From positions 1 to 20,118 of IMG/VR virus record IMGVR_UViG_3300017772_000184: a stretch of 20,118 nucleotides of DNA. One strand, given 5' to 3'. The translations under genes were made by a program, and so were the position numbers. The number at the start of each line of letters is the position of its first letter. Positions within the stretch are counted from its first letter, which is position 1. This document shows positions 749-20,074 of this stretch, one piece after another. Source of the stretch: a virus. The notes under the pieces are model-generated. The model did no database searches. It was given only the letters and a program-made list of their open reading frames with translations, and had not been told where the DNA came from.

Positions 749-3700
749 ATGGCGTATACTATAACACAAAAAGCAACCACTCCTAATGCAGCCTATACAA
801 GGCTCATATATACTGTAAGCGGTAGTACTAATACTTATAGACCTCAATTTAAGTATGTATTAGATATATTTGAATCTGGTAGTACTGATAGATTACATAG
901 AGTAGTACAAGAGGTTAATCCTGCCGGAGTATCTGTATTTGATCCTTCTAGGTTATTTCAAGGAGAATTAAAAGAAGACCAATCTTGGAAAATATCGTCT
1001 CTAACACCTTTTGTTTCTAGTAGTAAAGTATTTACGTTAAAGTTTGGAGAACAATACGGTACTTCAATATCTTCTAGTGTAGTAACAGTAGACGATGTAC
1101 AGCAGACTAATACAGAAGTATTTAGAGGAGTAGTTGAACCAAATAACGGTATAGGGTACGATTGGCAATCTAGTTCTTATGCAGTACTTAGTAATATGCC
1201 TGCTACCATGTCAATGCAAGTAGATGACTACGGTACTATATCGGTTTACAATAATGACGTTAGTTATGTTAGTCAAAGCTTTTATTCTTCAAGTGTATCA
1301 GGTAGTTTCCTTGTACAAAGTAAAAGCTATACTATAACAGATAACTTTAGTTCAATACCTATCTCTGCTTCTACTCCTTATTGGAATAATGCAGAAGTAA
1401 ACGTTAGTAGTTCATTAGGATTACAGAGTTACAAATATGAAGTATCAGATGAAACACACAGAGAAAAAACAAGGTTTGCCTTTATTAATAAATTGGGTAC
1501 TTGGGACTTTTATAACAACTATAACCCGGTTAGGCAATCTATGCAAGTTAAGCGAGAGCAATATACTGCTCCTAGGGTGGATTATTCTAGCCTTACTTCT
1601 AATTATGATATAAGCCGTAGAGGTTTAAATACCTATCATAGTACGCAAGACGATACCTTTATAGTAGATACTGATTTTTTAGATAAGACTAATGCTAATT
1701 GGATAGAAGAATTATTAGAATCTCCTTCTGTATTTATACAAAGAAACGGAGAGTTTATTCCTATAATGATTACAGATAGTTCTTATACAGCTAATACAAA
1801 TCAAGCAAGACAGAAACTATTTCAATATATTATAACGTTTAAACCTTCTAATCAACCATTTGGTAAATGGGAACCAGAGTATGTTAGTTGTCCTAAAATA
1901 CAACCTGTATGCCCAGAGATACAAACTAATGCAATTACTGATATAGACTATACAACTCTTACTCTTAATGGAGAAGTAATTTATGACGGAGGTGGTACTG
2001 TTACTAGAGGATTTGCTTGGAATAGCGGTTCAACACCTACTATAGAGAATAATAACCTTGTTGCAGGAACAGGAGAAGGTATATACAGTGCTTCTTTAAC
2101 AGGATTAGCTACAGGTAGTACTTTCTATGTAAGAGCTTATGCAAGTAACGAAGTATGTTTAATATACGGTAGTGAAGTTAATGCTAAAACTTTAGAATGT
2201 TCTGGTAGTAATGTAGAAACAGATCCTATAACTGGTACCTTCTACGGAGGATTTACAGCTAACGGAGAAGTAGTTTGTGAACCACCAGGTGATCTAAATG
2301 TAGAAAGAGGATTTGCTTATAGTTCTACAAATGCTAATCCAAGTGTAAGTGCTTCTTTATCAGTTAAAGCTGGATCAGGAGTTGGTATCTTTAGTAGCTC
2401 TATAACCTGTCTTACAGGATCTACAGATTACTACGTTAGAGCTTATGCTAGTTCTAGTGGTCATTTATACTATGGAGACGTAAAAGAAACAACAACCTCT
2501 ACATTTAGTAACCCAACACTTACTGGTACTGCATCTGGTTCTTTATTTAGAGACTTATATATGATTACCCTTAGCGGTAGTATAACACCAGGTAGTGTTA
2601 CAATAGAAGAAAGAGGATTTGCATTTAGTAGTCAATCTGCTTTACCAGATATTAGTTCATCTAACTCTATAAAACAAATAGTAGCAGGAGGACCAGGAGG
2701 TAATTATGAATTTATTTATACTTCATCTAATGCTGGTACTGAATACTTTGGAAGAGCTTATGCTAAATATACTTACTGTGGTGATGATTTTGTATTCTAC
2801 GGTAATGTAGCTAGTTCTTCAACTCCACCATTTACAGGTAGTTTAAGAGATTTAGATCCTTATGGTTCAGGTAGTATACCTACTGCTTCTTTATTATACT
2901 GGTATGACTTTACAGATCAAACTCAGATGACATTTACGTCAAGTACTGCTTTAGAAAATTACGGTCAAATAACAGATATACAAAACAAAGGTGTAGTAGC
3001 ATCAGCTTCTCTTAATGGAACAGCAGATAGCGATAAATATAAACCACCTCATTATATAGCACCAAACATAGAACAAGGTTATGCTCAATTCTATGGAGGT
3101 GATAACATTAACTCTGTACTTAATCAAAGAGGAGGAGACTTAGGTCAATTCGGTGATTATCCTGGTTTTAGTAGTTCGTCTATAAGTACTGCAATTTATT
3201 TCTCATGGGTAGATTTAGATACTATAAGTAATCAACCTAATATAGAATTTAGAGGTATGACACCAGGCTATCTATTCTCAGTTGCTTATTTACAAAGTCA
3301 TGAAACCTTACCAGGAATAGGCGGTGAAGCAAGATGGTATAGTAGCGTAAGTAGTAGTTTTGACTTAGTTGGTAGTGAAGTAGAATTAAGTGATATAAGT
3401 TCTCAGAAACATGCTATGGCTACGTACTACTCTTATAGTGGATCTAATAATGCATGGCAATCTACTTACCTTATAGTATCAGGTTCTCCTATATCAGGAA
3501 GAACTGATTACGGTAGAGGTGCAGTAACTAGTTCAAGAGCACCTGGTGAAACTAAAGTTTCTCTTAACAGTAATTTCTTAGAGTATACAACGGGTGTTAG
3601 AAATAACGAAGGATTAGCAATTGGTGGTTCAGGAGAAGTTGAGTCTAAAGGTAACAATAACTTTAAATTAGCTCACTTCCTTCTATATACAGGAAGCTTA

Positions 3701-3784
3701 AGTGAAGCTCAAATAACAAGCGTAATAAATGATTTCTCTGCTTCTGTAACTTACGGAGGAGAATTAAATTCAATAAGTAATTAA
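749..3784 (+). CDS. Tail-tip protein with Fn3-like repeats and C-terminal ConA/LamG-like domain
   Basis: 1011 residues. Residues ~1-380 form the tail-tip domain shared with the preceding gene; its N-terminal part (FKYVLDIF, NPAGVSVFDPSRL, FGEQYG) is of a kind I associate with Bacteroidota phage tail proteins. Residues ~381-483, 484-583 and 584-692 are three Fn3-like modules, each with RGFA(W/Y/F)(N/S)S, a short turn, and YVRAYAS or GRAYAK near its end. Residues ~712-1005 start with LLYWYDFTDQ and end with GSLSEAQITSVINDF, a pattern typical of LamG/concanavalin-like adhesin domains; the 18411-19310 product has the same layout. It probably sits at the distal end of the tail and exposes carbohydrate-binding modules to the host envelope. 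ATG at 749 follows the upstream TAG directly; the next gene starts one base after this stop. The exact place in the tail is inferred. Confidence 0.72.
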   Translation: MAYTITQKATTPNAAYTRLIYTVSGSTNTYRPQFKYVLDIFESGSTDRLHRVVQEVNPAGVSVFDPSRLFQGELKEDQSWKISSLTPFVSSSKVFTLKFGEQYGTSISSSVVTVDDVQQTNTEVFRGVVEPNNGIGYDWQSSSYAVLSNMPATMSMQVDDYGTISVYNNDVSYVSQSFYSSSVSGSFLVQSKSYTITDNFSSIPISASTPYWNNAEVNVSSSLGLQSYKYEVSDETHREKTRFAFINKLGTWDFYNNYNPVRQSMQVKREQYTAPRVDYSSLTSNYDISRRGLNTYHSTQDDTFIVDTDFLDKTNANWIEELLESPSVFIQRNGEFIPIMITDSSYTANTNQARQKLFQYIITFKPSNQPFGKWEPEYVSCPKIQPVCPEIQTNAITDIDYTTLTLNGEVIYDGGGTVTRGFAWNSGSTPTIENNNLVAGTGEGIYSASLTGLATGSTFYVRAYASNEVCLIYGSEVNAKTLECSGSNVETDPITGTFYGGFTANGEVVCEPPGDLNVERGFAYSSTNANPSVSASLSVKAGSGVGIFSSSITCLTGSTDYYVRAYASSSGHLYYGDVKETTTSTFSNPTLTGTASGSLFRDLYMITLSGSITPGSVTIEERGFAFSSQSALPDISSSNSIKQIVAGGPGGNYEFIYTSSNAGTEYFGRAYAKYTYCGDDFVFYGNVASSSTPPFTGSLRDLDPYGSGSIPTASLLYWYDFTDQTQMTFTSSTALENYGQITDIQNKGVVASASLNGTADSDKYKPPHYIAPNIEQGYAQFYGGDNINSVLNQRGGDLGQFGDYPGFSSSSISTAIYFSWVDLDTISNQPNIEFRGMTPGYLFSVAYLQSHETLPGIGGEARWYSSVSSSFDLVGSEVELSDISSQKHAMATYYSYSGSNNAWQSTYLIVSGSPISGRTDYGRGAVTSSRAPGETKVSLNSNFLEYTTGVRNNEGLAIGGSGEVESKGNNNFKLAHFLLYTGSLSEAQITSVINDFSASVTYGGELNSISN
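1889..2824 (+). repeat. Three tandem Fn3-like protein modules
   Basis: Roughly 100-residue modules (residues ~381-483, 484-583, 584-692 of the tail-tip protein) repeat the pattern RGFA.(N/S)S ... P.(I/V) ... G.G..Y/F ... GT.Y..RAYA ... YG. They are diverged from one another, so this is an old protein-level duplication rather than a recent DNA repeat. Cysteines recur at the module joints and in the loop before the final YG. This Fn3 variant is widespread in Bacteroidota surface proteins and supports the host assignment. Confidence 0.7.
2882..3763 (+). other. ConA/LamG-like C-terminal domain of the tail-tip protein
   Basis: Residues ~712-1005 of the 749-3784 product. The entry motif is LLYWYDFTDQ with a following FTSSTAL, the body is rich in Ser/Gly/Tyr beta strands, and the exit is a short helix, LSEAQITSVINDF. 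The separate 18411-19310 protein shows the same entry (INYWYDFTSND...LSGSST) and exit (LTEAQMKSLYDTW). The fold call rests on these edges and the overall length; no ligand residues can be named from sequence alone. Confidence 0.55.
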
Positions 3785-3785
3785 G

Positions 3786-6700
3786 ATGATAAACGATTTA
3801 ATACTTAGAGTAACATATGACGATACAATATACGATTTAGACGTAGATGTAGATGTACCTTTAAGACTAGATATGTCAACGGTAGAGAGTCAAGAGTTTG
3901 GTAAAGTATTTGGCGTAGGTTCTCAAACATTTAACTTACCAGGTACAAGTAAAAACAATAGATTCTTTAAACATGCCTACTCTGTCTCTGCAACAGACGT
4001 ACCTGCTTTTTATAATACCATATCGTGTTCTGTTTTACTAAACGGAGAGACGCTTCTAATAGGGCGTTTACAGCTAATGGAGGTAATTACTTCGGACGAA
4101 GGTTATATAGACTATAAAGTTCAAGTAACTGACACGGTATTACAGTTTCAAGAAGCATTAAATGGTCTACTAATTAAGAATGCAGACTTTAGTGCTTACA
4201 ATCATACGTTTAATTCAGCATCTATAATAGATTCTTGGGATGATAATTTACTATCCGGTAGTATATTTTATCCACTAGCAGAGTACGGAGGACAGAATGA
4301 TACTAATAATTTACCTTTTGCTACGTTTGCTTCTGGTAGTGCTTTCGATCAATCTACTTCTAGAGCATGGGATATAGCTTTACATCCATATGAACCAATA
4401 CAATTCTTACCTGCTATAAAGGCTAAAGATTTACTTACAGTAATCTTCGATCAAGTAGGTTATAGGTATACAGGTTCTTTTACAGAAACAGCAGACTTTA
4501 CTCAAGCTTATGTATTACCAAAAGGACAAGATGCATTAGGACCAGTAGTAGATCCTGACTTAGTAGCAACGTTTGAAGCAGAAGAAAATGTACCTCAATC
4601 CTTTGGTACAGGAGTAGTAAGTTCAGATCAAGTTAACTTTACAACAGAAATTAGTGACCCACAAAGTGCTTATAATACAGTACAGAGTCATTACGTATGT
4701 CCTGCTACTGGAGATTATATTTTTAGAGCAGATGTATCTTTTCCTCAACCTTTCTTAGGTACAACAGATATAGTAACGTTTACCTTAAGTTTAAATAAAG
4801 GTGTATATCCAAGTTCAGCTGCAGTAATAGATACAGCACGTATAACCACAAATATATTAGACTCAGGACCAACAATAAGTCTAGCAGTAGGAGGTAAACA
4901 TAACCTTAACTCTGGAGATGATGTATGGGTAACGTTTAGTAAAACATCAGGAGGTAATGCTTTTAGTTTTAGTAACGCTCAATTTGCTTGTAGTGATGCA
5001 CCACCAAGCGTAATAGATACTACGTTATTGATGAACTTACAGTTTCAATCTGATACTAAGAGTTTAGATATACTTCAAGGTTTTATGCAACAATATAATC
5101 TTGTAATGGTACCGGAAGAAGATTCTTCTAGAACTATTGTTATTGAAACGTTTGACGATTGGATAGGTCAAGGTGAAGTAAAAGATTGGTCTCAAAAATA
5201 TAATACAGCTAGAAGAGTAGGTATAAACCATACCGTAGATGACTTAGCTAAAGAGACGTTTCTTAAGAATGCAGATGATGTAGATAGATTTTCTAAGATA
5301 ACTATAGATAACCAACCCAATGATCAGTACGGTACTTTAAGATTATTAGCAGATAATAATATATCACAAGGAGAAGATACTATTGGTGATTTCTTTGCAC
5401 CTGTAATACTATCAGGACCTTTCCAGGTAGCTAGTACACCAGCAAGAGATTTACCAGAATCACAATCGTTTGACTTTGATATAGATGTAAACGACAATAC
5501 AGTATTTCCTCATTTATATAGATTTGAGAATAAACAAATAAGATCATTTGCTTTTAAACCAAGAATAGGGTATAAAGTAACTAATACAGTACAATATCCT
5601 TATGTAATAAAAATAGGAGATGTAGATAATAAATCAAGTATTTCTGGTAGTTATGCTACTCTATCTAACGTAGCTGCTTTGCCAGTTATATCTTCTTCTA
5701 CTAATGACTTGTTATTTAACAATACTTATACACCTTATACTGACGTAGGTTTTAACCTTAACAACAGTGTATCTAATTACGAAAGATACTGGAAGACTTT
5801 TTATAGTAGTCTTTATTGGGAAAATGCTACTTTAGTAACTATGGATTTATTCTTTGAACCTTACGAATATCAAAGTATAAAACTTAACGATAGAATATTA
5901 GTAAATAATATAGCTTATCGAATAAATAAAATTAAAGGGTTTAACTTAACCCGTAGAGATGTAGTTACAGTAGAGTTACTAAGACTATATCCTTCTTACT
6001 TTGAAGCAACCGATGTAGTAGAGTGTCCTAAAGTAGAAACTTACGAAGCACAGAATATAACATCTCAATCTATGACATTATCCGGTAGTGTAACATCTAT
6101 TGGTTCTGGTATACTTGAAAAAGGATTCGTAGTAAGTACATCAGATACTACTCCTACTATAGAAGAAGGAGCAACTAAATACGTTGTAGCAGGTGTTTCT
6201 GCTGGTGAGTACGATTATGACTTAACTGGACTTAATCCTGGTACTACTTATTATTACCAAGCATATGTAAGTTCAAGTCAAGAAGCTTGTGGTAATCCAA
6301 TATATAATGGTGACTCAAGAGGAAATCCTACTTTAACTTCTAGTGCTTGTCCTGCTGTAATAACAGTTAGTGGTTCAGTACAAGGGCCTTATAAAGCTAC
6401 TTTATTTGGTTCTACTACTAATACAGGATCAGGAGTCGTAGAGAGAGGATTTGTAATTAGTTCAACTGATACTAGTCCTGAGATAGGAGAAACTAACGTT
6501 AATAAGAAAATAAATGCTACAGGTAGTGCAGCTAATGTAGTAGAGAGCTGGAGTAATATAATAACAGGAAGTATAGATACTTGGTTATCTTGTAGTACTG
6601 ATTATAACTTTAGAGCATATGCTTCTTCTAGTGAATGTTTAGAGTACGGTACTAACCTTACTTTTACAACTGAAGCTTGTCCAACAGGTTCTACACCATC

Positions 6701-7016
6701 TGATACTGGTAGTTGTATACCATTTAGTGCTTCTTTAGAAACAATATTTAACGGAGCTTGTAGTGAGACAATAGCACAAGTATTGCATACTGACTATACT
6801 GGTTCATGGCCTCCAACTCAAGGTTACTTAGACGGAGGAGGAGTAATGCATGTATATATGGATAGTAGCTGTAGTGTTGCTTCACCAAATACATACTATG
6901 CATTTGATAGTAGTTCAACTACGGGTACAGACGTTAATAGCTTCTTAAGAGTTAATGATGCAGTAGGAGACAATCCAGGAGACGTAATTTACATCTATAA
7001 TTGTGAAGGTCCTTAA
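3786..7016 (+). CDS. Tail hub/tip protein with C-terminal Fn3-like modules
   Basis: 1076 residues. The N-terminal ~125 residues (DVDVPLRLDMSTVE..., VFGVGSQTFNLPGTSKNN, LLIGRLQLMEV, DYKVQVTD) match the pattern of a tail protein common in Bacteroidota phages, in which a short ring-like beta domain precedes a large tail hub. A beta-sandwich-like insert lies near 290-405 (YVCPATGDYIFRADVSF). Residues ~680-735 (DLFFEPYEYQSIKLNDRI, AYRINKIKGFN, VTVELLRLYP) form the conserved end of the hub region. Two Fn3-like modules follow at ~747-853 and ~854-964, related to those of the preceding gene. The last ~100 residues are a separate Cys-containing domain ending IYIYNCEGP. It starts one base after the preceding stop, so the two are probably co-translated. 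I infer a central tail-tip or baseplate-hub role; no enzymatic motif is seen. Confidence 0.65.
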   Translation: MINDLILRVTYDDTIYDLDVDVDVPLRLDMSTVESQEFGKVFGVGSQTFNLPGTSKNNRFFKHAYSVSATDVPAFYNTISCSVLLNGETLLIGRLQLMEVITSDEGYIDYKVQVTDTVLQFQEALNGLLIKNADFSAYNHTFNSASIIDSWDDNLLSGSIFYPLAEYGGQNDTNNLPFATFASGSAFDQSTSRAWDIALHPYEPIQFLPAIKAKDLLTVIFDQVGYRYTGSFTETADFTQAYVLPKGQDALGPVVDPDLVATFEAEENVPQSFGTGVVSSDQVNFTTEISDPQSAYNTVQSHYVCPATGDYIFRADVSFPQPFLGTTDIVTFTLSLNKGVYPSSAAVIDTARITTNILDSGPTISLAVGGKHNLNSGDDVWVTFSKTSGGNAFSFSNAQFACSDAPPSVIDTTLLMNLQFQSDTKSLDILQGFMQQYNLVMVPEEDSSRTIVIETFDDWIGQGEVKDWSQKYNTARRVGINHTVDDLAKETFLKNADDVDRFSKITIDNQPNDQYGTLRLLADNNISQGEDTIGDFFAPVILSGPFQVASTPARDLPESQSFDFDIDVNDNTVFPHLYRFENKQIRSFAFKPRIGYKVTNTVQYPYVIKIGDVDNKSSISGSYATLSNVAALPVISSSTNDLLFNNTYTPYTDVGFNLNNSVSNYERYWKTFYSSLYWENATLVTMDLFFEPYEYQSIKLNDRILVNNIAYRINKIKGFNLTRRDVVTVELLRLYPSYFEATDVVECPKVETYEAQNITSQSMTLSGSVTSIGSGILEKGFVVSTSDTTPTIEEGATKYVVAGVSAGEYDYDLTGLNPGTTYYYQAYVSSSQEACGNPIYNGDSRGNPTLTSSACPAVITVSGSVQGPYKATLFGSTTNTGSGVVERGFVISSTDTSPEIGETNVNKKINATGSAANVVESWSNIITGSIDTWLSCSTDYNFRAYASSSECLEYGTNLTFTTEACPTGSTPSDTGSCIPFSASLETIFNGACSETIAQVLHTDYTGSWPPTQGYLDGGGVMHVYMDSSCSVASPNTYYAFDSSSTTGTDVNSFLRVNDAVGDNPGDVIYIYNCEGP
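6024..6677 (+). repeat. Two tandem Fn3-like protein modules
   Basis: Residues ~747-853 and ~854-964 of the hub protein repeat the pattern EKGFVVSTS / ERGFVISST, TPTI / SPEI, and TTYYYQAYVSS / TDYNFRAYASS. Each module opens with a CP dipeptide (ECPKV, ACPAV) and has a second Cys in the loop before the terminal YG/YNG (EACGNPIYNG, SECLEYG). They are clearly related to the modules at 1889-2824 in the adjacent gene. Confidence 0.7.
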
Positions 7017-7043
7017 ATAATTAAAATTCTATTTATATAATAT

Positions 7044-8561
7044 ATGGCAAAAGAGGTAGTAAATATAGACGTACAGGTCCAAACTAAATCCGTAGGTGAG
7101 TTAGAAACTGAATTAGCTAAAATTAACGAAGAGTTAAAACAAGTTAAGATAGGTAGTCAAGCTTTTAAAGACTTATCTGCAGATTCTCAAAAACTTACAG
7201 CAGAGTTAGAGACCGTAAATAGAGAGATCGAAGGATTTACTTTAGATAAGAAGATTGAAACATCTCAAGCAGCTGTATTAGGTTTAGCTGGAGGATTAGA
7301 AGCTACTGTAGGTACTTTAGGTCTATTAGGAGTAGAGTCAGAGGTATTCGGTAAGTTTGAAGAAAAAGCTATATCAGCATTAACTGCAGCAAGAGGATTT
7401 ATAGATCTATCAGAAGGGTTTGGTAAATTAGCTAAGAATATATCTTTTGCAACTATAAAGTCTAAGATATTCGGTATAACAACTAAACAAGCTTTAATTG
7501 CAACAGGTATAGGTGTATTTGCAGTAGCGTTAGGTAGTATTGTAGCTTACTGGGATGATATTATAAAAGGAGTAGATAAAGCAGCTAAGAAGTTTCCTTT
7601 ACTTGGAATTATAATTACTAAGATAGAAAACGGCTTCAATACTCTTATAGAGTCAATGAGACCGGTACTAGAGTTCTTTGGTATCTTACCAGATGCAGCA
7701 GAGAGAGCTAACAATAAGATTATAGAAGGTAATGAAGAATTAATTTCTTCTAATAAAAAGACTATAGATATACTAAAAGCAAGAGGAGCTACTCAAGAAG
7801 AGATTTATGCTAAACAAGAAGAGCTCTTAATGGCTGAGTTAGATAACCTTAAAAGAACTGATGCTGAAGCTGAAGATATAGAATCTAAAGCTCATGAATT
7901 AACTCTACTTAGAATAGCAGAAGAAACAAGAAAAAGAAAAGAAGCATTTGACGAAAGATTAAAACAAATTCAGTTAAGTGAAACTTTAGAGAAAGAAAGA
8001 GTAGAATTAGAAAAGGAATGGTTTGCTAACTTTGGTGATGAAGCTGCTATGTCGTTTGTAGAGGCATTTGATAAGACTGTAGAAGAAGAGTTTGAACCAG
8101 AATTTATTGACGAAGATTTCGATGACGTAATGGATGGGTTACTAGGAGAAGATGGTGTAGTAACTAAATTTAGAAAAGGATTAGATGATGCATTACAGCA
8201 AACTTTAGCTAATAAAGATAATTGGAATAACTTTTTTGATTTAGCCAATCAAGCATTTGGTAACATAGAGATGTTATCTCAACAGAAGTACGAAAGAACG
8301 TTACTTAACTTACAAAGAGAGAGAGATGAGATAATAAATAATACTAGTCTTACAGAGCAAGAAAGAGCAGCAGCATTAGAAAGAATAGAAAAGAAAGAAA
8401 AAGAAACAGAGATAAGAAGAATAAAAGCAGAAAGAGATCAATTTACTCTTAAACAAACCTTAGCAGGATTAGAAGCTATAATGAATGCTAAGATGTTTGC
8501 TATAGAAATGGTACAGATAGCTAAGAAACAAGTAGCTAATGCTACAGCAACAGCACAATAA
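7044..8561 (+). CDS. Tape measure protein, main part (ends at an in-frame TAA)
   Basis: 505 residues. It begins with a coiled coil (LETELAKINEELKQ, ~20-63), followed by an Ala/Gly/Leu-rich segment with LGLLGVESEVFGK (~93-104) that resembles Bacteroidota phage tape measures. A hydrophobic, probably membrane-active segment lies at ~149-170 (LIATGIGVFAVALGSIVAYW). Long charged helices then run to the end (~225-335 and ~400-480). The role is to set tail length and assist DNA entry. The TAA at 8559-8561 is followed in the same frame by 13 sense codons and then the 109-residue ORF at 8601-8930, which looks like the missing C-terminus. The upstream leader 7017-7043 is A/T only apart from one C and has no Shine-Dalgarno. 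It is short for a tape measure; the joined protein would be about 628 residues. Confidence 0.72.
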   Translation: MAKEVVNIDVQVQTKSVGELETELAKINEELKQVKIGSQAFKDLSADSQKLTAELETVNREIEGFTLDKKIETSQAAVLGLAGGLEATVGTLGLLGVESEVFGKFEEKAISALTAARGFIDLSEGFGKLAKNISFATIKSKIFGITTKQALIATGIGVFAVALGSIVAYWDDIIKGVDKAAKKFPLLGIIITKIENGFNTLIESMRPVLEFFGILPDAAERANNKIIEGNEELISSNKKTIDILKARGATQEEIYAKQEELLMAELDNLKRTDAEAEDIESKAHELTLLRIAEETRKRKEAFDERLKQIQLSETLEKERVELEKEWFANFGDEAAMSFVEAFDKTVEEEFEPEFIDEDFDDVMDGLLGEDGVVTKFRKGLDDALQQTLANKDNWNNFFDLANQAFGNIEMLSQQKYERTLLNLQRERDEIINNTSLTEQERAAALERIEKKEKETEIRRIKAERDQFTLKQTLAGLEAIMNAKMFAIEMVQIAKKQVANATATAQ

Positions 8562-8600
8562 ATAGCTTTATCCGGTATTGCCGCTACTGGTAAAGCCTCT

Positions 8601-8930
8601 ATGTCCTTAGGAGCCTTTGTAGCTGCATTAGGACCTTTTGGTATTGCTGCATTTGCTGCTACTATTGGAGGGGTAATTGCAAGTATTATATCTGCAAGAA
8701 AGAATGCTAAGTCACAAATAGCCGCTATAAGCGGTGGTGCCGGAGGTGGTGGCGGAGGCGGAGTACAAGTAGGATCTGCTCCATCACAAGGATTAGCTAA
8801 TTTAGAAGATACATCAGCACCTCAATTTTCAGGAGCACAACCTGCAATAAGAACATATGTATTATCAGGAGATGTAACCTCTGCACAAGAGGCTGATAGT
8901 AAAATAAATAAAAGAAGAACGGTAGGATAA
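8601..8930 (+). CDS. C-terminal part of tape measure protein, separated by an in-frame stop
   Basis: 109 residues from ATG at 8601, in the same frame as the tape measure gene; the 13 codons 8562-8600 upstream are also open. It has a hydrophobic segment (FVAALGPFGIAAFAATIGGVIASIIS), a poly-Gly linker, and a tail ending IRTYVLSGDVTSAQEADSKINKR. Bacteroidota phage tape measures typically end in exactly this order: a hydrophobic Ala/Gly segment, a Gly-rich linker, and (A/T)YV(V/L)S.DVT.AQ..D. It is therefore read as the end of the tape measure. Whether it is made by re-initiation at 8601, by read-through, or not at all cannot be told. The codons just after the stop use more GCC/TCC than the neighbouring DNA. 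Confidence 0.65.
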   Translation: MSLGAFVAALGPFGIAAFAATIGGVIASIISARKNAKSQIAAISGGAGGGGGGGVQVGSAPSQGLANLEDTSAPQFSGAQPAIRTYVLSGDVTSAQEADSKINKRRTVG

Positions 8931-8940
8931 AATTTATATT

Positions 8941-10872
8941 ATGAGGATAATCGAATTATTAATAGACAAGTTAGAAGAGTTTAATGGGTTTGATGCAGTA
9001 GCATTAGTAGAAGAACCAGCTATAGAATTAGATTTCTTTGCTTTTAACAATAAAGAAGTATTAGATACAATTAAGTTTGAAGTACTAAAACTTGCAATGA
9101 AAGAAAAATTTGTAGAAAGACTACCCGGAGAAGGTAAAGATAGCTACATAGCAAGATGTATACCGGTACTAAAGTCAGAAGGATACGGTGACGATCAAGC
9201 AGCAGCTATATGTTATGATGCTTTAAAACTAGATAGTCACGAAGAATACGAGCATAAAACTCTTTATGTCTCTGTAGTTAAAACAGACGATGGTAAAAAG
9301 TATGTTATAGACGATACGTTACTACCAGAGTTACACTTAGAGAGAGGTAAGAAATACTGTATCGATCAATGTGATGAGTCAAATCAAGACCATCCTATGA
9401 GATTATCTATAACTCCTGACGGTATACATAACGGAGGTAAAGCTTATTTAGGTCAAGGAACTGACGAAGTAGAGTATCAATTAGATAAAATACATTTCTG
9501 TCCTAAAACATCTACACCAGAAGTACTTTATTATTACTGTGTTAATCATCCAGGAATGGGAGGTAGATTTGTAATGGTACAAAAAGAAATGGACTTAGAT
9601 ATAGATGTATCTAGTCTACCAGATTATGCTAACCCTTTAGAAGACCAAGAATATGAATTTGAATCCTTTAATGACTATCCTGAATCTGCCACTAATGCCG
9701 CTAAAAGAGCCCTTAAGTGGAGAGAAGATCATCCAGACAATGATTGCGGGACCCGTGTGGGATGGGCCAGAGCTAATCAGCTTGCTGACAGACGAAACAT
9801 ATCAGAAGATACTATTGCAAGAATGGCTTCGTTTGCTAGACATTTACAATACGAAGATGTCCCATACTCAGAGGGATGCGGAGGTCTTATGGTTGATGCT
9901 TGGGGAGGACGTGCCGGAATAGAATGGGCTAAAAATAAGCTAGAAAGAATAAGAGCAAGTAAGGTGTCTCTCTCTAATGAAAGTATTATAGAAAGTCTAC
10001 CTATAGAAGAACAAGAGAACATCTTTAAGACACTATCAGATAGAGGGATTAACGAAGCTAAGTTAGGTAAAGATGGCTATGAAAGAGTAGAACCAGAAGA
10101 ATTCTTTAAAAACGTATTTACTTCTGCAACTACAGGACTACCAATAAAGGGAGATGCTAAACAAGCAGATGCTATAACTACAAAAGGTGCTAAGGTATTA
10201 TACGAATACGTAGGGCCATTAGATGAAAAGACTAGAAAGTTTTGTAGAAGAATGTTATCATTAAGTAAAAAAGGTACTTTATGGTCTAAAGCAGACTTAC
10301 AAAACATACAAGGTAGTAACCCAGAGTTTCCACAATACTATAATATATTTCTATACAAAGGGTCTTATGGTTGTAGACATTCTTGGAAAGCAGTTTATCT
10401 ATACCAAAAGAAACCTAAGAAAGCTAAAGTTACTGTAACGTTTATGCAGAAAGCTGAGTTAGCTTCTAAAGAGTTTAAGTTTGGATTAAACGAAGATAAG
10501 AAAAGAGTAGTAGGTCCAATGCTTGTTCCTAATAAACTTATAATGAGAATGGATGCTGAAGGTAATCCTTTTTATGTATATTTTAGTGAAGATACAGTAA
10601 GATCTATAGCTGAAAAAGCAATTAAAGAAAAACTAATAGATATAGTTAACTTAGAACACAATCCAGATATGCCAGTAAAGGCACATATGACTAGTAGTTG
10701 GATAAAAGAATCAGATGACGATAAATCTAGTATGTATGGTTTAAACGTACCTATGGGTACTTGGATGGCAGAGTATAAGATAGAAGACGATAACGTATGG
10801 CAGATGATTAAGGATGGAGTTATTAACGGGTTTAGTATAGAAGGTTTCTTTCAAAATAAAAAGATACAATAA
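8941..10872 (+). CDS. Composite capsid protein: XkdF-like prohead protease with cupredoxin and Mu gpF-like modules
   Basis: 643 residues with at least five segments. ~1-36 (IIELLIDK, GFDAVALVEEPAIELDFFAF) is the start typical of XkdF-type proteins. ~55-97 holds KFVERLPGEGKDSYIARCIP and DDQAAAIC, a short phage motif. ~105-216 is cupredoxin-like with YYYCVNHPGMGG. ~241-338 has NDYPESATNAAKRALKW, CGTRVGWARANQLA and PYSEGCGGLMVDAWGG. ~345-490 resembles the C-terminal part of Mu gpF head-morphogenesis proteins (YEYVGPLDEKTRKFCRRML ... GCRHSW). ~513-637 is the XkdF-like protease domain (VVGPMLVPN, YVYFSEDTVRSIAEK, LEHNPDMPVKAH, MGTWMAEYKI, NGFSIEGFF), with His573 and Ser585/Ser586 as candidate catalytic residues. 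It probably joins the procapsid, cleaves scaffold and capsid precursors, and brings a minor head protein in the same chain. It lies directly upstream of the small membrane protein and the scaffold gene. Confidence 0.75.
   Translation: MRIIELLIDKLEEFNGFDAVALVEEPAIELDFFAFNNKEVLDTIKFEVLKLAMKEKFVERLPGEGKDSYIARCIPVLKSEGYGDDQAAAICYDALKLDSHEEYEHKTLYVSVVKTDDGKKYVIDDTLLPELHLERGKKYCIDQCDESNQDHPMRLSITPDGIHNGGKAYLGQGTDEVEYQLDKIHFCPKTSTPEVLYYYCVNHPGMGGRFVMVQKEMDLDIDVSSLPDYANPLEDQEYEFESFNDYPESATNAAKRALKWREDHPDNDCGTRVGWARANQLADRRNISEDTIARMASFARHLQYEDVPYSEGCGGLMVDAWGGRAGIEWAKNKLERIRASKVSLSNESIIESLPIEEQENIFKTLSDRGINEAKLGKDGYERVEPEEFFKNVFTSATTGLPIKGDAKQADAITTKGAKVLYEYVGPLDEKTRKFCRRMLSLSKKGTLWSKADLQNIQGSNPEFPQYYNIFLYKGSYGCRHSWKAVYLYQKKPKKAKVTVTFMQKAELASKEFKFGLNEDKKRVVGPMLVPNKLIMRMDAEGNPFYVYFSEDTVRSIAEKAIKEKLIDIVNLEHNPDMPVKAHMTSSWIKESDDDKSSMYGLNVPMGTWMAEYKIEDDNVWQMIKDGVINGFSIEGFFQNKKIQ
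9253..9588 (+). other. Cupredoxin-like module inserted in the capsid protease
   Basis: Residues ~105-216: TLYVSVVKTDDGKKYVIDD, LHLERGKKYCIDQ, NQDHPMRLS, then YYYCVNHPGMGG and RFVMVQ. This is the plastocyanin-like beta-sandwich seen in many marine phage virion proteins. Cys200, His203 and Met206 form a C-x2-H-x2-M set, and His151 could be the fourth ligand, as in type-1 copper sites. Whether metal is bound is inference. Confidence 0.65.
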
Positions 10873-13940: not shown

Positions 13941-15155
13941 ATGGCAAAGAATAAAAATAAAATGCATTTCGCCAAAGTAGAAAGGTTTAACTCAGAGCAA
14001 GTAAACTTTCAAGAGAAGATACAAGGCAAATATGTAAAGAGTGGTAACGATAATAGGTTTCCACAATATCTTATAGACTTATACAACAGATCAGCAATAC
14101 ATGCTGCTTGTGTAGATTCTATTGTCCATGGAGTTATAGGACAAGGGTTAACAGCAAACGATGAGCTTTTTTTAGAGCATGCAAATAGTAGAGGAGAAAC
14201 ATGGAATGATATCTTTAAGAAAATATCTTTAGATTATATCTTACACGGTAGCTTTGCTTTAGAAGTTATCTACAGTAGAGATAGAACTAAAATAGCAGAA
14301 GCATATCATATTGACTTTTCAACTCTTAGAGCTAAAGAAAAAAACCATAGAGGAATTATTCCTGGATACTATATTTCTAACGAATGGAAAGTATTTACTG
14401 CTCATACAGACGATAATACAATGTATCTTCCAGTATTTAATACTAAGAAAGCAAGAGATGAAGCTTCTCAAATCTTTGTCGTACACAACTACAGACCAGG
14501 TCAACAGTACTATCCGTTACCTTCTTATAATGGAGCCCTTAGAACCATTGAGTTAGACGTAGAAATAGATAATTTCCATGTTAATAACATAAAGAATGGC
14601 TTAGCACCAAGTTTAGCTATAACAACTTATACAAATGGAGCTAATGACGATGTAGAGTCTATAGAGGCTATGTTAAGGTCTAACTATGGCGGAACTGATA
14701 ATGCTGGTTCATTAATATATATGGATGTAGATAGTCCAGAAAATAAACCAGATATAACACCAATACCTCAGAATGGAGCTGATGGTTATTATACTGCGAT
14801 TAACGATATGTCTATTCAGCAGATACTAACAGCACATAGAGTTACAAGTCCTATGTTATTAGGAATAAAAACAGAAGGTCAGTTAGGTGGTAGATCAGAA
14901 CTAATAGATGCTAGAATATTATTCGAACATAACGTTATTGAACCATTCCAGCAACAAATATTAAGACAATTAGAGGGTATTATGCAAGTTAATTACCCAG
15001 ACATAGTCTTAGGAGTAGAAACTCAAACTTTATATGAAGATGGAGAAGTAGAAGAAGATGTAGTAACTTCAGTAGAGGTAACTGACTCAGAAGCTGAACA
15101 AGTAGAGAGATCAGACGAAACTAACGTAGAAGACGTACCAAGAAATTTAGAATAA
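13941..15155 (+). CDS. Portal protein
   Basis: 404 residues. Portal-like features are the N-terminal FPQYLIDLYNRSAIHAACVDSI, the wing/stem region (SLDYILHGSFALEVIY, HIDFSTLRA), the stem helix EIDNFHVNNIKNGLAPS, and the conserved clip/crown part INDMSIQQILTAHRVTSPML followed by LGIKTEGQLGGRSE and a helix FEHNVIEPFQQQILRQLE. The last ~50 residues are acidic and probably disordered. It would form the dodecameric DNA gate, bind terminase and the head-tail connector encoded next, and nucleate procapsid assembly. It is near the short end for HK97/SPP1-type portals. It begins AATAATTATGGCA, two bases after the preceding stop, and ends four bases before the connector gene. Finding the portal after the capsid and tube genes is unusual. 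Confidence 0.85.
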   Translation: MAKNKNKMHFAKVERFNSEQVNFQEKIQGKYVKSGNDNRFPQYLIDLYNRSAIHAACVDSIVHGVIGQGLTANDELFLEHANSRGETWNDIFKKISLDYILHGSFALEVIYSRDRTKIAEAYHIDFSTLRAKEKNHRGIIPGYYISNEWKVFTAHTDDNTMYLPVFNTKKARDEASQIFVVHNYRPGQQYYPLPSYNGALRTIELDVEIDNFHVNNIKNGLAPSLAITTYTNGANDDVESIEAMLRSNYGGTDNAGSLIYMDVDSPENKPDITPIPQNGADGYYTAINDMSIQQILTAHRVTSPMLLGIKTEGQLGGRSELIDARILFEHNVIEPFQQQILRQLEGIMQVNYPDIVLGVETQTLYEDGEVEEDVVTSVEVTDSEAEQVERSDETNVEDVPRNLE

Positions 15156-15159
15156 AGAT

Positions 15160-15762
15160 ATGACAAATACATTTTTAATATCAGAAGCTCAAATACGAAA
15201 TTATACTGACATCGAAGATAACATCGATTCAGCATTAGTTAAAAACGGTATAAGAGAAGCACAGGATATAAAGCTACAACCAATTATAGGTACTTTACTA
15301 ATAGATAAACTTTATTCTTTAGTAGATGCAGGTACTATGGGAGATGCGGCTAATGCAGACTATAAAACGTTATTAGATAGCTATATTCAAGATATGCTTA
15401 TATATGCAGCTTATTACTATATACTAGACTCAGTATACATAAGAAGTAGAAACAATGGATTACTTATACCTGATGGTGGAGAAAATTCTATTGCAGCAGA
15501 TAGATCTATGTATAACGTTAAAAGACAAGCAGTACAAAATAAAATGGAATTCTATTCTAATTTATTAACAGACTATATAATAGAAGAACAAACTTTATAT
15601 CCAGAGTTAAATGCTTCAAATAAACTATTCGAATTAAATCCTGATTACGATGAGAAATATGGTTCTCCATTTATCTTTAACCATAAAGGAAAAATGACTA
15701 GAGAGTTTATAAGAAGAGGATACAGAGTTTACGACACAAGATATAAACAATACCCACAATAA
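15160..15762 (+). CDS. Head-tail connector/adaptor protein (probable)
   Basis: 200 residues, mostly helical. It begins with FLISEAQIRNYTDIEDNIDS and then LVKNGIREAQDIKLQPIIGT, LDSYIQDMLIYAAYYYILD and YNVKRQAVQNKMEFYSNLL. This is the layout of gp6-type connector proteins: an N-terminal helix that starts ITEADIR-like, a REAQD...IG.L segment, and a long C-terminal helix. The C-terminal ~45 residues (NPDYDEKYGSPFIFNHKGKM, YRVYDTRYKQYPQ) are an extension with no recognised motif. Position immediately behind the portal gene, same strand, four bases apart, strongly supports a ring that docks under the portal and receives the tail. The family is identified by pattern and context only. Confidence 0.6.
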   Translation: MTNTFLISEAQIRNYTDIEDNIDSALVKNGIREAQDIKLQPIIGTLLIDKLYSLVDAGTMGDAANADYKTLLDSYIQDMLIYAAYYYILDSVYIRSRNNGLLIPDGGENSIAADRSMYNVKRQAVQNKMEFYSNLLTDYIIEEQTLYPELNASNKLFELNPDYDEKYGSPFIFNHKGKMTREFIRRGYRVYDTRYKQYPQ

Positions 15763-15764
15763 TT

Positions 15765-18404
15765 ATGGCACTAAATTACAATTTAACTAACCAGGAAATA
15801 AAGGATACATTTCAGCAGCTTGCACAGGTATCTGGTAGTATAGCTACTAATCAAGGTCAAGCAAGTGGATCTGCTATTTTAGATGGTTCAGGTAGTAGAG
15901 TAGAAAACTTACACGTAACTGCTAGTCATGCAGTATCATCTTCTTTTGCTGACTTAGCTAAGAGTGCTACAACTGCTACTTTAGCAAATACTGCTTCTTT
16001 CTTTGGAGAGGGTATGGTGACTGCCTCAGCGGTAGCTTCAACTATTACGTTTACTAAAGATAACGGTACTACATTTGATATACAGATAGCTCAATCAGGT
16101 TCAGTAGAATCAGCTTCTTATGCTGCTTTTGCTAGTAATGCAGAGTCTTCATCTTATGCAGTTTCTGCTTCTAGTGCTATATATACAGTATCAAGTTCTT
16201 ATGCAATTAAAGCTAGTTCATCAGATACAGCTACATCAGCTACAACAGCAACTTCTGCTTCACATGCAGTAATAGCAGATAGCGCTTTAAGTTCTACTTC
16301 CGCTACTAGTGCTTCTCATGCAGAGTTTGCAGATCTAGCAGAGTTAGCAAATAACGCAACTGCTGCAGTAAGTGCATCTCACTCTTTAAAAGCTAACTTA
16401 GCAGATAATGCTACTAATGCAGTAACGGCTTCACATGCGGTTAGTGCTTTAAGTTCTTCTCATGCTATAAAGGCTAATTCAGCAGACAGTGCTACTAGCG
16501 CTACAACGGCAACATCAGCATCACATTCGGAAAGATCAGACTTTGCAGGTACAGCAGATTCAGCTACTTCGGCTTCTCATTCAGAGTTTGCTGATTTAGC
16601 AGAACTAGCTAACAATGCTACAGCAGCGGTTTCTGCTTCTTATGCTTTAAGTTCATCAGTAGTAAATGACCCTAACGTAGCTTACATAAATAAAAATAAT
16701 GTATTTACAGGTGACCAAACGTTTAACGATATAACAGTTAATGGTACTGGTTCATTTGCTTATATAGAGTCAGTAACAGGTTCAGCTAAGAATATAGGAG
16801 AATCTTTTATAGTACTTACTAACGATACTCCTGCTCAAAGATATGCAGGAATAAAAGTATACGATAGTGGTAGTACTGCAGCTACAGCTTCTCTAGAATG
16901 GGATGGTTTAAATGATAACTGGATTATAGCAGAAGAGACTGGAAATACAGGAGCTGTACTAACAGGCGTTACAGGTAGTAGAGGCTCAGAAGCTTTACCT
17001 ACTATAAACGTATTACAAAAAGGAGCAGGACATCATAGTTTAACTAACTCTAACATTACCGATGACGGTACAAGTGTTAGTGTTTCTACGTCAGTTACTT
17101 CTAGTAATGGATTTAGATCTAGTGGATTTAACAAACCTTCTAGCTTTAATGGCGATGTAAGTGCATTTAGTTTAACTACTACTGGAGAGGTATTAGCTAA
17201 AGCTTCTTTTAGTACTACAGCAGGAATGACTTTAGGAGAAGTTGGCACACCTAAGAGATTGGGATACTTTAAAGCAAATACAGATATAGGATCTAATTCA
17301 GGTGTAGGTGCAGCAGCAGGTTTATACATAGTAGATGCTAATCAATCAGATGCATTTGTAGGTACAATAGCTAACTTTAGTAATCCATTCGATGAAGCAG
17401 ATTCAGGTTCGTTTATTATGCAAGGTGGAGCTAATGCAGATTCTAATTATCAGAATACGATAATGTATGCTAATGAGGCTAATGGTTTCCCTCACTTTGT
17501 AAAATCAACTTACTTTGACAAACCAGTATTTGTATCTAGTAGTTTACAAGTTACAGGTTCTTTAGACGTTAATGGAGCTTTAACACCAAGTAGTATATCT
17601 ACAGGTAATATAGTTGCAACTGCAGTTACTTCTAGTAATGGATTCTCTTCTACAGCAATTAACGCAGCTTCTAACTTTAACGGTAACGTTCAGGCGTTTA
17701 GTTTTGGTACTACAGGGGCAGTTAGTTTAGATGCTTCGTTTAGTACAACAACAGGGCTTAGCTTTGGTACATATGCAGGACCGGTTAAAACTATTGGTAC
17801 TACAATTTATTATACGTCTGCAAGTCAAGCAAGTAGTGCGATAAGATACTACGGTCAATATATTATCGATAGAGATCAAAGTAACTCATTTGTTGGTAAC
17901 TTTGTAAATTTAGGAAGTTTAGATACAGCAGATAAGACTGCTTTTGTAATTCAAGGTGGTGCTAATGCAGATGCAGATTATAGTAACACTATTATGTCTG
18001 CTAACGAAACAGATGGTTTTCCTAAGTTTCAAAAATCAGTACATTTTCTTAAGAAAGTAATTACTTCAGGCTCTGTTGCTACAGAGGTTATTAGTGGTTC
18101 TCACAATGGTAGTAATATCTTTATAGATTACTCTCAAGGTAGTATGTTTGACGTAGAGTTAAAGTCAGGTAGTCTTTTAGTAGTAGAAGCACAGAATATA
18201 GAAAAAGGTATGACTGCAATGATTAAATTAAGACAACCTACTGCTACAGGTGCATATGGTACTATTGATTTTGCAGATGCTTATAAGTTTGCAGACGGTA
18301 CTAAAGTACAGGCAACACAAGCTTCAGGTAGTGTAGATATACTTACTGTTACTTCTTTTGACGGAACTACTTTAGATACTACATCTGTTAAGAATTTAAA
18401 ATAA
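15765..18404 (+). CDS. Tail fibre protein with long Ala/Ser triplet repeat
   Basis: 879 residues. Residues ~1-50 are a short attachment region. From 53 to 77 and again from 117 to 297 every third residue is Ala or Ser (one Thr at 141), with SASH/SSSY-type marks recurring. Residues ~309-440 form a beta-rich shaft (INKNNVFTGDQTFNDITVNG). Two related ~150-residue units follow, starting VTSSNGF at 444 and 621 and each containing QGGANAD and NTIM.AN...GFP.F. The C-terminal ~90 residues (FDVELKSGSLLVVEAQNIEK ... DILTVTSFDGTTL) resemble the end domain of many marine phage fibres. It is probably trimeric and mediates host recognition. It starts AATTATGGCA, two bases after the connector stop, ends with tandem TAA TAG, and is followed by the adhesin gene six bases later. 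Confidence 0.75.
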   Translation: MALNYNLTNQEIKDTFQQLAQVSGSIATNQGQASGSAILDGSGSRVENLHVTASHAVSSSFADLAKSATTATLANTASFFGEGMVTASAVASTITFTKDNGTTFDIQIAQSGSVESASYAAFASNAESSSYAVSASSAIYTVSSSYAIKASSSDTATSATTATSASHAVIADSALSSTSATSASHAEFADLAELANNATAAVSASHSLKANLADNATNAVTASHAVSALSSSHAIKANSADSATSATTATSASHSERSDFAGTADSATSASHSEFADLAELANNATAAVSASYALSSSVVNDPNVAYINKNNVFTGDQTFNDITVNGTGSFAYIESVTGSAKNIGESFIVLTNDTPAQRYAGIKVYDSGSTAATASLEWDGLNDNWIIAEETGNTGAVLTGVTGSRGSEALPTINVLQKGAGHHSLTNSNITDDGTSVSVSTSVTSSNGFRSSGFNKPSSFNGDVSAFSLTTTGEVLAKASFSTTAGMTLGEVGTPKRLGYFKANTDIGSNSGVGAAAGLYIVDANQSDAFVGTIANFSNPFDEADSGSFIMQGGANADSNYQNTIMYANEANGFPHFVKSTYFDKPVFVSSSLQVTGSLDVNGALTPSSISTGNIVATAVTSSNGFSSTAINAASNFNGNVQAFSFGTTGAVSLDASFSTTTGLSFGTYAGPVKTIGTTIYYTSASQASSAIRYYGQYIIDRDQSNSFVGNFVNLGSLDTADKTAFVIQGGANADADYSNTIMSANETDGFPKFQKSVHFLKKVITSGSVATEVISGSHNGSNIFIDYSQGSMFDVELKSGSLLVVEAQNIEKGMTAMIKLRQPTATGAYGTIDFADAYKFADGTKVQATQASGSVDILTVTSFDGTTLDTTSVKNLK
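16113..16661 (+). repeat. (A/S)-x-x triplet region of the tail fibre
   Basis: Codons for residues 117-299. Sixty-one successive triplets place Ala or Ser at residues divisible by three, with Thr141 the single exception. SASH/SASY/SSSY marks are spaced 12, 15, 21, 18, 21, 18, 9, 21, 18 and 21 residues apart, all multiples of three. A 19-residue unit EFADLAELANNATAAVSAS occurs twice, at 187-205 and 274-292. Confidence 0.85.
17094..18074 (+). repeat. Two related ~150-residue units in the tail fibre
   Basis: Unit 1 (residues ~444-594, 17094-17546) and unit 2 (~621-770, 17625-18074) share VTSSNGF, FNG(D/N)V.AFS, ASFSTT.G....G, YI(V/I)D..QS..FVG, QGGANAD, NTIM.AN...GFP.F.KS. They are separated by a linker containing LQVTGSLDVNGALT. 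The units have diverged in sequence and in small gaps, so the duplication is old. Confidence 0.75.
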
Positions 18405-18410
18405 TAGAAT

Positions 18411-19310
18411 ATGTTAATTAAACCTTTTGGCTTTGCAGGAGCAGGTGGAGTAAGTGAATGGGACCCTACTCTTGATGGAGATCTTACAATAAATTATTGG
18501 TATGATTTTACCTCTAACGATTATGTAACGTTAAGTGGTAGTTCAACTAATGTATTAGATATACTTCCTAGACAAAAGCCAGCAGGAGAAACAGGTGAAG
18601 GTAGATTACATGATGCTTCTGGTACTTCTAAAGGGTATACTAACCCGGTAGAGTGGAATACTAATTTTAACATAGACTGTATAAACATAAATAATGCTGC
18701 ATTATTCTCAGGTAGTGATTCTTTAAACTTAAACTGGATACCAAGTGGTAGTACAAATAACGATGAATGGTCGGCTGTATGTATAACTGCTACTGATGAT
18801 TGGCAGGATAGAGGTACTACAAATAGTATTGCAGCATGGAATATAACAGCTACTGGAGATGGTTATGATAGTTTAAACTTATTTATAAATAAAAACGGTG
18901 GTTTAGGTAGTAGTTGTAGTGGGAGTGGTGACTTCGATGTTGCTTATGGTAACTACAACGGTTCGAATTGGAACGATACAAGATTTCAAAACATGACTGC
19001 TAATCCTTCTGGTTCAAGTGGTGAAGGTTATGTACCTAATATGTATAGTACAACCTTTAGCGGTGATAGTAATCCAGCAGATGCAAGTTTTACTGTTAAC
19101 AATCGTGACGAATGTAGTGGTTTATCTTTTACTAAAGCTTCAGGTAATAGTTGCGGTTTATGTATCGCTGCAGCTCCTACGTTTACAAGTGCAAATAGTT
19201 ACAACGGTAGGTATTGGCATTTCATTACTTATAAAGGTATTCTTACAGAAGCGCAGATGAAAAGTTTATACGATACTTGGAGAGAGCATTATTTAGCTTT
19301 AGCACCATAG
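18411..19310 (+). CDS. Lectin-like (ConA/LamG-type) adhesin
   Basis: 299 residues. After a short Gly-rich start (FGFAGAGGVSEWDPTLDGDL) comes INYWYDFTSNDYVTLSGSST, a long Ser/Asn/Gly-rich beta region with six to seven Cys, and a C-terminal YWHFITYKGILTEAQMKSLY followed by DTWREHYLALAP. The entry and exit match the C-terminal domain of the tail-tip protein at 749-3784, so both are read as ConA/LamG-like carbohydrate-binding domains. It probably caps the fibre or tail as a receptor-binding or chaperone protein, since it follows the fibre gene by six bases on the same strand. Cys pairs (GSSCSGSGD, NRDECSGLS, NSCGLCIAA) could stabilise it outside the cell. Its 3' end overlaps the opposite-strand glycosyltransferase gene by 22 bases. 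Confidence 0.65.
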   Translation: MLIKPFGFAGAGGVSEWDPTLDGDLTINYWYDFTSNDYVTLSGSSTNVLDILPRQKPAGETGEGRLHDASGTSKGYTNPVEWNTNFNIDCININNAALFSGSDSLNLNWIPSGSTNNDEWSAVCITATDDWQDRGTTNSIAAWNITATGDGYDSLNLFINKNGGLGSSCSGSGDFDVAYGNYNGSNWNDTRFQNMTANPSGSSGEGYVPNMYSTTFSGDSNPADASFTVNNRDECSGLSFTKASGNSCGLCIAAAPTFTSANSYNGRYWHFITYKGILTEAQMKSLYDTWREHYLALAP

Positions 19311-20074
19311 TTATCTTTATAACGTAACCAAACATCTCTCATTATTCTAGTCCTATCTTCTATAGGAAAGCCAGTAAAGTGCCATATAAAAGCATACTTA
19401 ATAAAGAACGGTGTAGGATCTTCGTTTAACTGCCAATTGTGTTTAAACATATCTTTTTTATGTATAGAGAATAAGTTCCAAGTAGGAGGCAGATATTTTA
19501 TTTTTACTTTATTTAGTTTCAGTACATAGTTAAGAACGGTTTGTACTTTACCAACACCTTTTATTAGATCTAAGTCTTTACCATAATGTAAGTATAATCC
19601 TTGTAACTCATCAAAAATATACTTATGCTCTTTAGTAAAGAAACATACACCGGAGTTAAAATAGTTATCTAAAATAAAGTCATCAGTAGCTGCTTTAGGA
19701 AAAAAAGGTTTATAAGCATCTAAAGATCTAAGAATCCATCCTATACTAGCTCTATCGTTTACTACACAGAATTCATCTGTATATAAGTCAAAAGGATTAG
19801 GTGCATCCCATTTAACCATAGTATCTGAGTCAACGTATATAATCTTATCGTACTTATCTCCTACGTAATCAAATATAAGATCTTTAGCCCATACAGGGTA
19901 TTTATAATCATTGTTAACTGTAGGACCAGTCATTTTATCAATAACTAAAAAGTCTATATCCATCTTCTTACACCAAGCAGTCCAAGAATTTATACAGTAT
20001 TGACTATACTCAGAGTTGTTAAACTGAGAAGTATCACTGTTGATTGCAGTAGTATATATTAGATTTTTACTCAT
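19289..20074 (-). CDS. GT8-like glycosyltransferase (GT-A fold)
   Basis: 261 residues on the minus strand. The order of features fits the GT8-like GT-A fold. An N-terminal strand (NLIYTTAINSD) comes first, then YPVWAKDLIFDYV, the acidic metal/nucleotide-sugar motif IIYVDSDTMVKWD (Asp82-x-Asp84), YFNSGVCFF (~138-146), and IWHFTGFPIED (~230-240), comparable to the HF.G segment of GT8 enzymes. No signal peptide or membrane helix is seen, so it acts in the cytoplasm on a sugar nucleotide donor. The acceptor is unknown: host surface glycan, phage DNA base or virion protein are all possible. It is the only gene on the opposite strand, convergent with and overlapping the adhesin gene, so it is likely expressed from a separate promoter upstream (beyond 20074). 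The start ATG has AAGAG just ahead of it. Confidence 0.75.
   Translation of the reverse strand: MSKNLIYTTAINSDTSQFNNSEYSQYCINSWTAWCKKMDIDFLVIDKMTGPTVNNDYKYPVWAKDLIFDYVGDKYDKIIYVDSDTMVKWDAPNPFDLYTDEFCVVNDRASIGWILRSLDAYKPFFPKAATDDFILDNYFNSGVCFFTKEHKYIFDELQGLYLHYGKDLDLIKGVGKVQTVLNYVLKLNKVKIKYLPPTWNLFSIHKKDMFKHNWQLNEDPTPFFIKYAFIWHFTGFPIEDRTRIMRDVWLRYKDNYGAKAK

Follow-up and report, generated by a model that had tools for sequence, protein, structure and literature searches.

An 879-residue protein encoded by a virus fragment of 20,118 nt (IMG/VR record IMGVR_UViG_3300017772_000184, 20.1 kb; the whole fragment is called the window) carries Ala or Ser at every third residue from position 117 to position 297, the only exception being Thr141. 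We confirmed this period-3 shaft and demonstrated its sequence rule, the selection that acts on it, its modularity, and its spread. Residues 117-299 would form a homotrimeric fiber shaft, for which an alpha/beta (beta-layer-type) coil is the most likely fold, a reading to which we give an even chance. Taken together, the data point to a thin three-chain rod with a three-residue repeat, an exchangeable part in the fibers of many phages.

The 879-residue protein had no match in Pfam, PHROGs, PDB sequences, cultured phages (tblastn included), or GTDB genomes. It is likely to be a virion fiber. The gene order in the record is protease, MCP-like ORF (named from position and synteny only), portal, DUF6712, and fiber gene. 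The order portal/DUF6712/fiber gene was also found in L003, L004, and L017, and in L009 and L019 the fiber gene lies just upstream of scaffold/capsid genes. This synteny with portal and DUF6712 suggests that attachment to the head or neck is at least as likely as attachment to the tail. The earlier note had called the protein a tail fiber; "fiber" is likely to be right, but "tail" is unproven, the gene being located in the head module. Unrelated ORFs that bear the same triplets match known fiber families, namely Peptidase_S74 (L096), Gp53-like_C (L122), and phrog_677 (L089). Elsewhere in the window, positions 8941-10872 encode a fusion protein whose C-terminal part is an XkdF-like head maturation protease; in its N-terminal part, residues 118-219 match the fiber/baseplate families phrog_30742 and phrog_708. 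At the end of the structural module lies a glycosyltransferase family 8 gene that runs in the opposite direction (19289-20074, -).

Table 1 Parts of the fiber protein and its upstream neighbors (window positions)
Feature	Position	Strand	Basis
Portal protein, neighbor	13941..15155	+	Pfam/PHROG-type family searches
DUF6712 protein (presumed connector), directly adjoining in relatives too	15160..15762	+	
Fiber protein CDS, 879 aa	15765..18404	+	ORF; 19 related viral loci
Conserved N-terminal anchor, residues 1-52, MALNYNLTNQEIKDTFQQLAQVSGS...	15765..15920	+	Alignment of relatives
First run (9 triplets in the other phase), residues 53-79	15921..16001	+	
Short beta-rich element between runs, residues 80-116	16002..16112	+	Alignment, AlphaFold2
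Main shaft of 61 A-x-x triplets, residues 117-299	16113..16661	+	
Internal duplication in shaft, copy 1	16298..16389	+	DNA repeat
Internal duplication in shaft, copy 2, DNA 75% identical to copy 1	16559..16650	+	
Post-shaft domain, common to relatives with triplets or heptad coiled coil ahead	16683..17105	+	
Two tandem copies of ~177-aa unit, distal half	17069..18038	+	Repeat comparison
C-terminal beta domain, residues 770-879, pLDDT about 80	18072..18401	+	AlphaFold2, structure comparison

The 61 consecutive third positions (residues 117, 120 ... 297) hold Ala 50 times, Ser 10 times, and Thr once. In 20,000 same-composition shuffles of 184 residues the A/S/T run averaged 10.8 and reached at most 28. 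Ala is autocorrelated at lag 3 (0.69) and at all multiples of 3 (0.62-0.76), and Ala Fourier power is found at 3.0 only, the values at 3.33, 3.5, 3.6, 3.67, 6, 9, 18, and 21 being 0.00-0.01. The coordinates given by the earlier note for the main run with its Thr141 exception, and for a second run in a different phase (residues 53-77), were exact. Its remark that the SASH/SSSY-type marks are always multiples of three apart, often 18 or 21, also holds (spacings 12, 15, 21, 18, 21, 27, 21, 18, and 21). A DNA repeat artefact was rejected as the source of the rule, since the Ala codons are mixed (27 GCT, 21 GCA, and 2 GCG); Tandem Repeats Finder (TRF) gave no long tandem array and only two short 9-nt stretches. 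The shaft does contain an internal duplication of 87 aa (61% identical). Its copies differ at 23 of 34 codons, 16 synonymously and 7 non-synonymously, and this mostly synonymous divergence indicates that selection acts on the protein and maintains the rule there. Between the two runs, strands were predicted at residues 94-97 and 103-106 with low confidence (AlphaFold2). Distal to the shaft, the tandem ~177-aa units are 531 nt apart and share 64 of 177 residues, and the model of residues 770-879 resembles the capsid spike of Pseudomonas phage Pa223 (Z 9.2) as well as tail parts (Z 7-9), with likeness to T4 gp9/gp10 and CBA120 TSP4 domains.

The relatives share the N-terminal anchor MANYNLTNQEIKDTFQQLAQVSGS in the alignment and differ in what follows it: 9-26 triplets, an extra domain, or, in L002 and L003, a heptad coiled coil. 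The shaft site holds 25-26 triplets in L001, L004, and L005, and in L007 and L008 a run interrupted once by Gly (9 and 16 triplets). In all five of these loci the run is followed by a domain of ~150 residues and then by 7-9 further triplets, whereas the window protein lacks that domain and has a single long run instead. L002 and L003 have no triplet shaft at the site. They have NxxNIxT heptads there (Asn power at 3.5 reached by none of 5000 shuffles), which in L003 match the solved trimeric-autotransporter stalks 2WPR/2WPQ (E 0.01-0.02) and which lead into the same post-shaft domain as in the window protein. As heptad stalk and triplet shaft stand between the same flanks, they are interchangeable parts. 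Beside the distant relative L011 lies a collagen-like ORF (6753-8861) with many G-[TS]-S triplets and GPQGPQGRQGPIGPSG.

The triplet rule persists beyond these relatives in unrelated phage fibers. Two DNA pattern scans of IMG/VR plus the related loci gave ~50 triplet-bearing ORFs after filtering; the remaining matches, for the most part 9-nt tandem repeats, frame artefacts, or Gly-based collagen-like ORFs, were discarded. The same grammar recurs in ~40 other viral contigs (longest single run 103 triplets, in L122) and, among cultured phages, in gp324 of Synechococcus phage B23, which has runs of 67, 48, 42, 35, and 29 triplets. The grammar reads Ala, then D/T/G, then aromatic/His/Arg/Asn; in 27 pooled proteins F, Y, H, and R fall almost solely at position 3 and D, G, and T at position 2. 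A hydrophobic residue before Ala pairs with V/I/L or T after it and not with S/G (43 families, z 6.5), and in these families triads of the hydrophobic-Ala-hydrophobic and polar-Ala-polar kinds alternate as in the beta-layer consensus. The hydrophobic-Ala-Thr form of that consensus was absent from the window shaft (0/22). A hexad HMM tested by leave-one-out on held-out families gave a mean z of 7.7 versus triplet-order shuffles; about a third of the families showed no gain, and for the window shaft alone its gain was reached by 2 of 100 shuffles. B23 gp324 (L214, 3001-6885) is annotated as a secretory antigen precursor SsaA, yet it is a 1294-aa triplet-shaft protein, and it is related to baseplate/fiber ORFs. 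The ORF at 2902-4095 (-) of L068 has a 49-triplet run and a signal-peptide-like N-terminus that resembles the start of a secreted Bacteroidota protein, and by this sequence feature the triplet shaft may also occur outside virions. The Plasmodium_HRP Pfam model (PF05403, AHHAHHAAD repeats) scores the shafts of L122, L028, L126, L023, L068, and L089, but kinship was rejected because all scores are below the Pfam cut-off and reflect likeness of composition.

Alpha-helical coiled coils go down to 3.33 residues per turn (range 3.33-3.9), and below that value beta-layers occur, in which a small central residue is hydrogen bonded between three chains; beta-layers with a central Ala are known at hexad and nonad spacing, both of which have a period of 3.0 (PMC4786415). 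A core period of exactly 3.0 is therefore one that alpha-helices cannot meet. The window shaft has both this period and a small central residue. In a geometric scan we built every period-3 backbone of standard geometry into a C3 or a staggered trimer, and then ran the C3 search again with no condition on which residue faces inward. Both searches led to the same backbone, x (-112/119), Ala (-109/130), x (-69/-66). This best C3 trimer is beta-beta-alpha with a twist of 93 degrees and a rise of 4.3 A per triplet (~11.6 residues per turn), and in it all three NHs of each triplet are bonded to other chains. The Ala C-alpha lies 3.4 A from the axis, and the inward site accommodates Ala or Ser (one rotamer) and clashes with any C-gamma, in agreement with the 50 Ala, 10 Ser, and 1 Thr observed. 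As the scan assumed ideal bond geometry, used a score that rewards inter-chain hydrogen bonds, and contained neither side chains nor solvent, it is to be read as a plausibility argument and not as a structure. A six-residue search, which did not converge, gave nothing better than the three-residue solution. Comparison of the contact pairs of the model with the residue couplings gave no positive hydrophobic signal, the couplings being explained by simple hexad alternation. In the PDB, a profile built from 16 unrelated shafts matched 7O92 (E 0.003) and 5APZ (E 0.085) and, slightly better, the beetle antifreeze protein 1EZG (E 0.001). By sequence and name, 7O92 is a Candidatus Giovannonibacteria construct that contains AETATK hexads, only about three of them strict, and 7O97 is the same protein "converted" by an extra Ile per hexad. 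The 7O92 and 5APZ matches are weak and read as likeness of composition and period, not as homology.

Four other readings were weighed against the alpha/beta coil. Heptad and hendecad alpha-helical coiled coils have periodicities of 3.5 or 3.67. An Ala-rich trimeric coiled coil, in which the triplet would be tolerated because Ala and Ser fit any helix face, is in our view unlikely. Ala is a strong helix former, L003 has a heptad coiled coil at the same site, and for a 72-aa slice with a pooled alignment the best AlphaFold2 model was a straight helix (pLDDT 89). However, the other four models of the slice were discordant (pLDDT 72, 62, 49, and 44), and the full-length model (10-row alignment) showed a shaft with pLDDT of 25-30 and no helix. 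Foldseek of the slice helix against viral models gave no match. Given the range from 89 to 44 we report this predicted helix and do not trust it; moreover, the fold of an intertwined trimer is beyond what a monomer prediction can settle. The earlier note had named a confident helix or disorder as an outcome that would tell against an uncommon fold. This came about in part: the best slice model is a confident helix, but the five models disagree and the full-length model has none. Its statement that the shaft is no heptad coiled coil agrees with the absence of Ala power at 3.5 and 3.67 and with a period of 3.0 that is outside the 3.33-3.9 range. The x positions also argue against a helix: many of them hold T, S, N, D, G, or an aromatic residue, their mean helix propensity cost is 0.52-0.54 kcal/mol, and their hydrophobics recur every 6 residues, so that no stripe would form on a helix. 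A flexible, disordered low-complexity linker, Ala/Ser-rich by composition alone, would fit the low pLDDT of the full-length model and a shaft length that varies freely between relatives. The exact register over 61 triplets (far longer than any chance run), synonymous drift with conserved amino acids, and positional preferences common to unrelated families make it a poor candidate.

Of the two folds that the earlier note put forward, packing of three polyproline-II chains on Ala, which we weighed as a collagen-like triple helix with Ala for Gly and together with a variant built of 3-10 helices, is improbable, yet it stays among the rivals. A turn takes three residues in either form, position 2 favors acidic and position 3 basic residues like X and Y of collagen, and the relative L011 has an adjoining Gly-based collagen-like gene. 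In the geometric scan, however, polyproline-II-type solutions with inward Ala made at most about one inter-chain hydrogen bond per triplet versus three for the beta-beta-alpha triad. The collagen triple helix has Gly at each third position; the shaft has Gly at none of the 61 positions and has no Pro, and Gly-based collagen had rightly been set aside. The other fold, a triangular (left-handed parallel) beta-helix, has 18-residue coils built on the hexapeptide [LIV]-x-x-x-[STAV]-x. Aromatic marks that are often 18 apart and a slight aromatic excess at 6 triplets are in its favor, but the marks are also 12, 15, 21, and 27 apart, there is no period-18 power, the geometric solution has a different number of residues per turn, and the aliphatic class reaches only 25% at the best hexad position, unlike the hexapeptide rule. 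We consider the beta-helix very improbable, far more so than the other three.

For the alpha/beta coil we infer the trimer, its backbone, its dimensions, and its head or neck attachment. The trimeric heptad stalk that takes the place of the triplets between the same flanks in L003 counts in favor of this reading. Every third residue of three parallel chains would meet at the trimer axis, leaving room for Ala or Ser only. Each triplet would advance its chain by a fraction of a turn about the axis, with the backbone NH groups bonded to the other chains. At about 4.3 A per triplet, the rise of the geometric model, the shaft would be a rod ~26 nm long and roughly 2-2.5 nm thick. Phages extend the shaft triplet by triplet or put another trimeric shaft in its place, with the anchor and head domains on either side unchanged. 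If length is indeed set by addition of triplets, fiber length could be read from sequence. The shaft type is common in marine and other phage fibers, is read as low complexity today, and is picked up neither by family libraries nor by structure prediction of monomers; if the fold is right, a widespread phage shaft type would have a named fold. Our literature search on Ala triplet fibers, polyproline-II shafts, RBPseg classes, and 7O92/7O97 found nothing on the motif.

Several known systems share features with the window shaft. Collagen-like Gly-X-Y phage fibers have a strict triplet and a rod function, but the window shaft has Ala/Ser in place of Gly and no Pro. Plasmodium histidine-rich proteins (PF05403) have strict A-x-x triplets. 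Trimeric autotransporter-type stalks (2WPR/2WPQ) have counterparts at the same site and between the same flanks in L002 and L003, but consist of NxxNIxT-type heptads without triplets. The A-T-Y-A-x-x-A-G-I repeats of cyanophage tail-fiber/baseplate proteins such as B23 gp324 follow the same triplet grammar in a glycine-richer variant (A-G-I), and a literature search found no described structure for them. The alpha/beta coiled coils (Hartmann et al. 2016, PMC4786415; 5APZ, 5APP, and 2C3F; hexad construct 7O92) share the period of 3.0 and a small central Ala every hexad or nonad, with many examples in trimeric phage fibers. The window shaft most likely works like one of these, although we stop short of counting it as a proven case. 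Known examples are short (few layers) or are nonads with helical residues between, whereas shafts of the window type have Ala at every triplet for 61-103 triplets and few helix-forming residues. A more specific and tentative proposal is that the shaft is a continuous triple-stranded coil of a beta-beta-alpha three-residue repeat with all NHs bonded and Ala/Ser on the axis, although no such coil of this length was found among solved structures. It is possible, if somewhat doubtful, that this coil is the alpha/beta coiled coil taken to its limit, long and with every hydrogen bond made, and put to wide use by phages.
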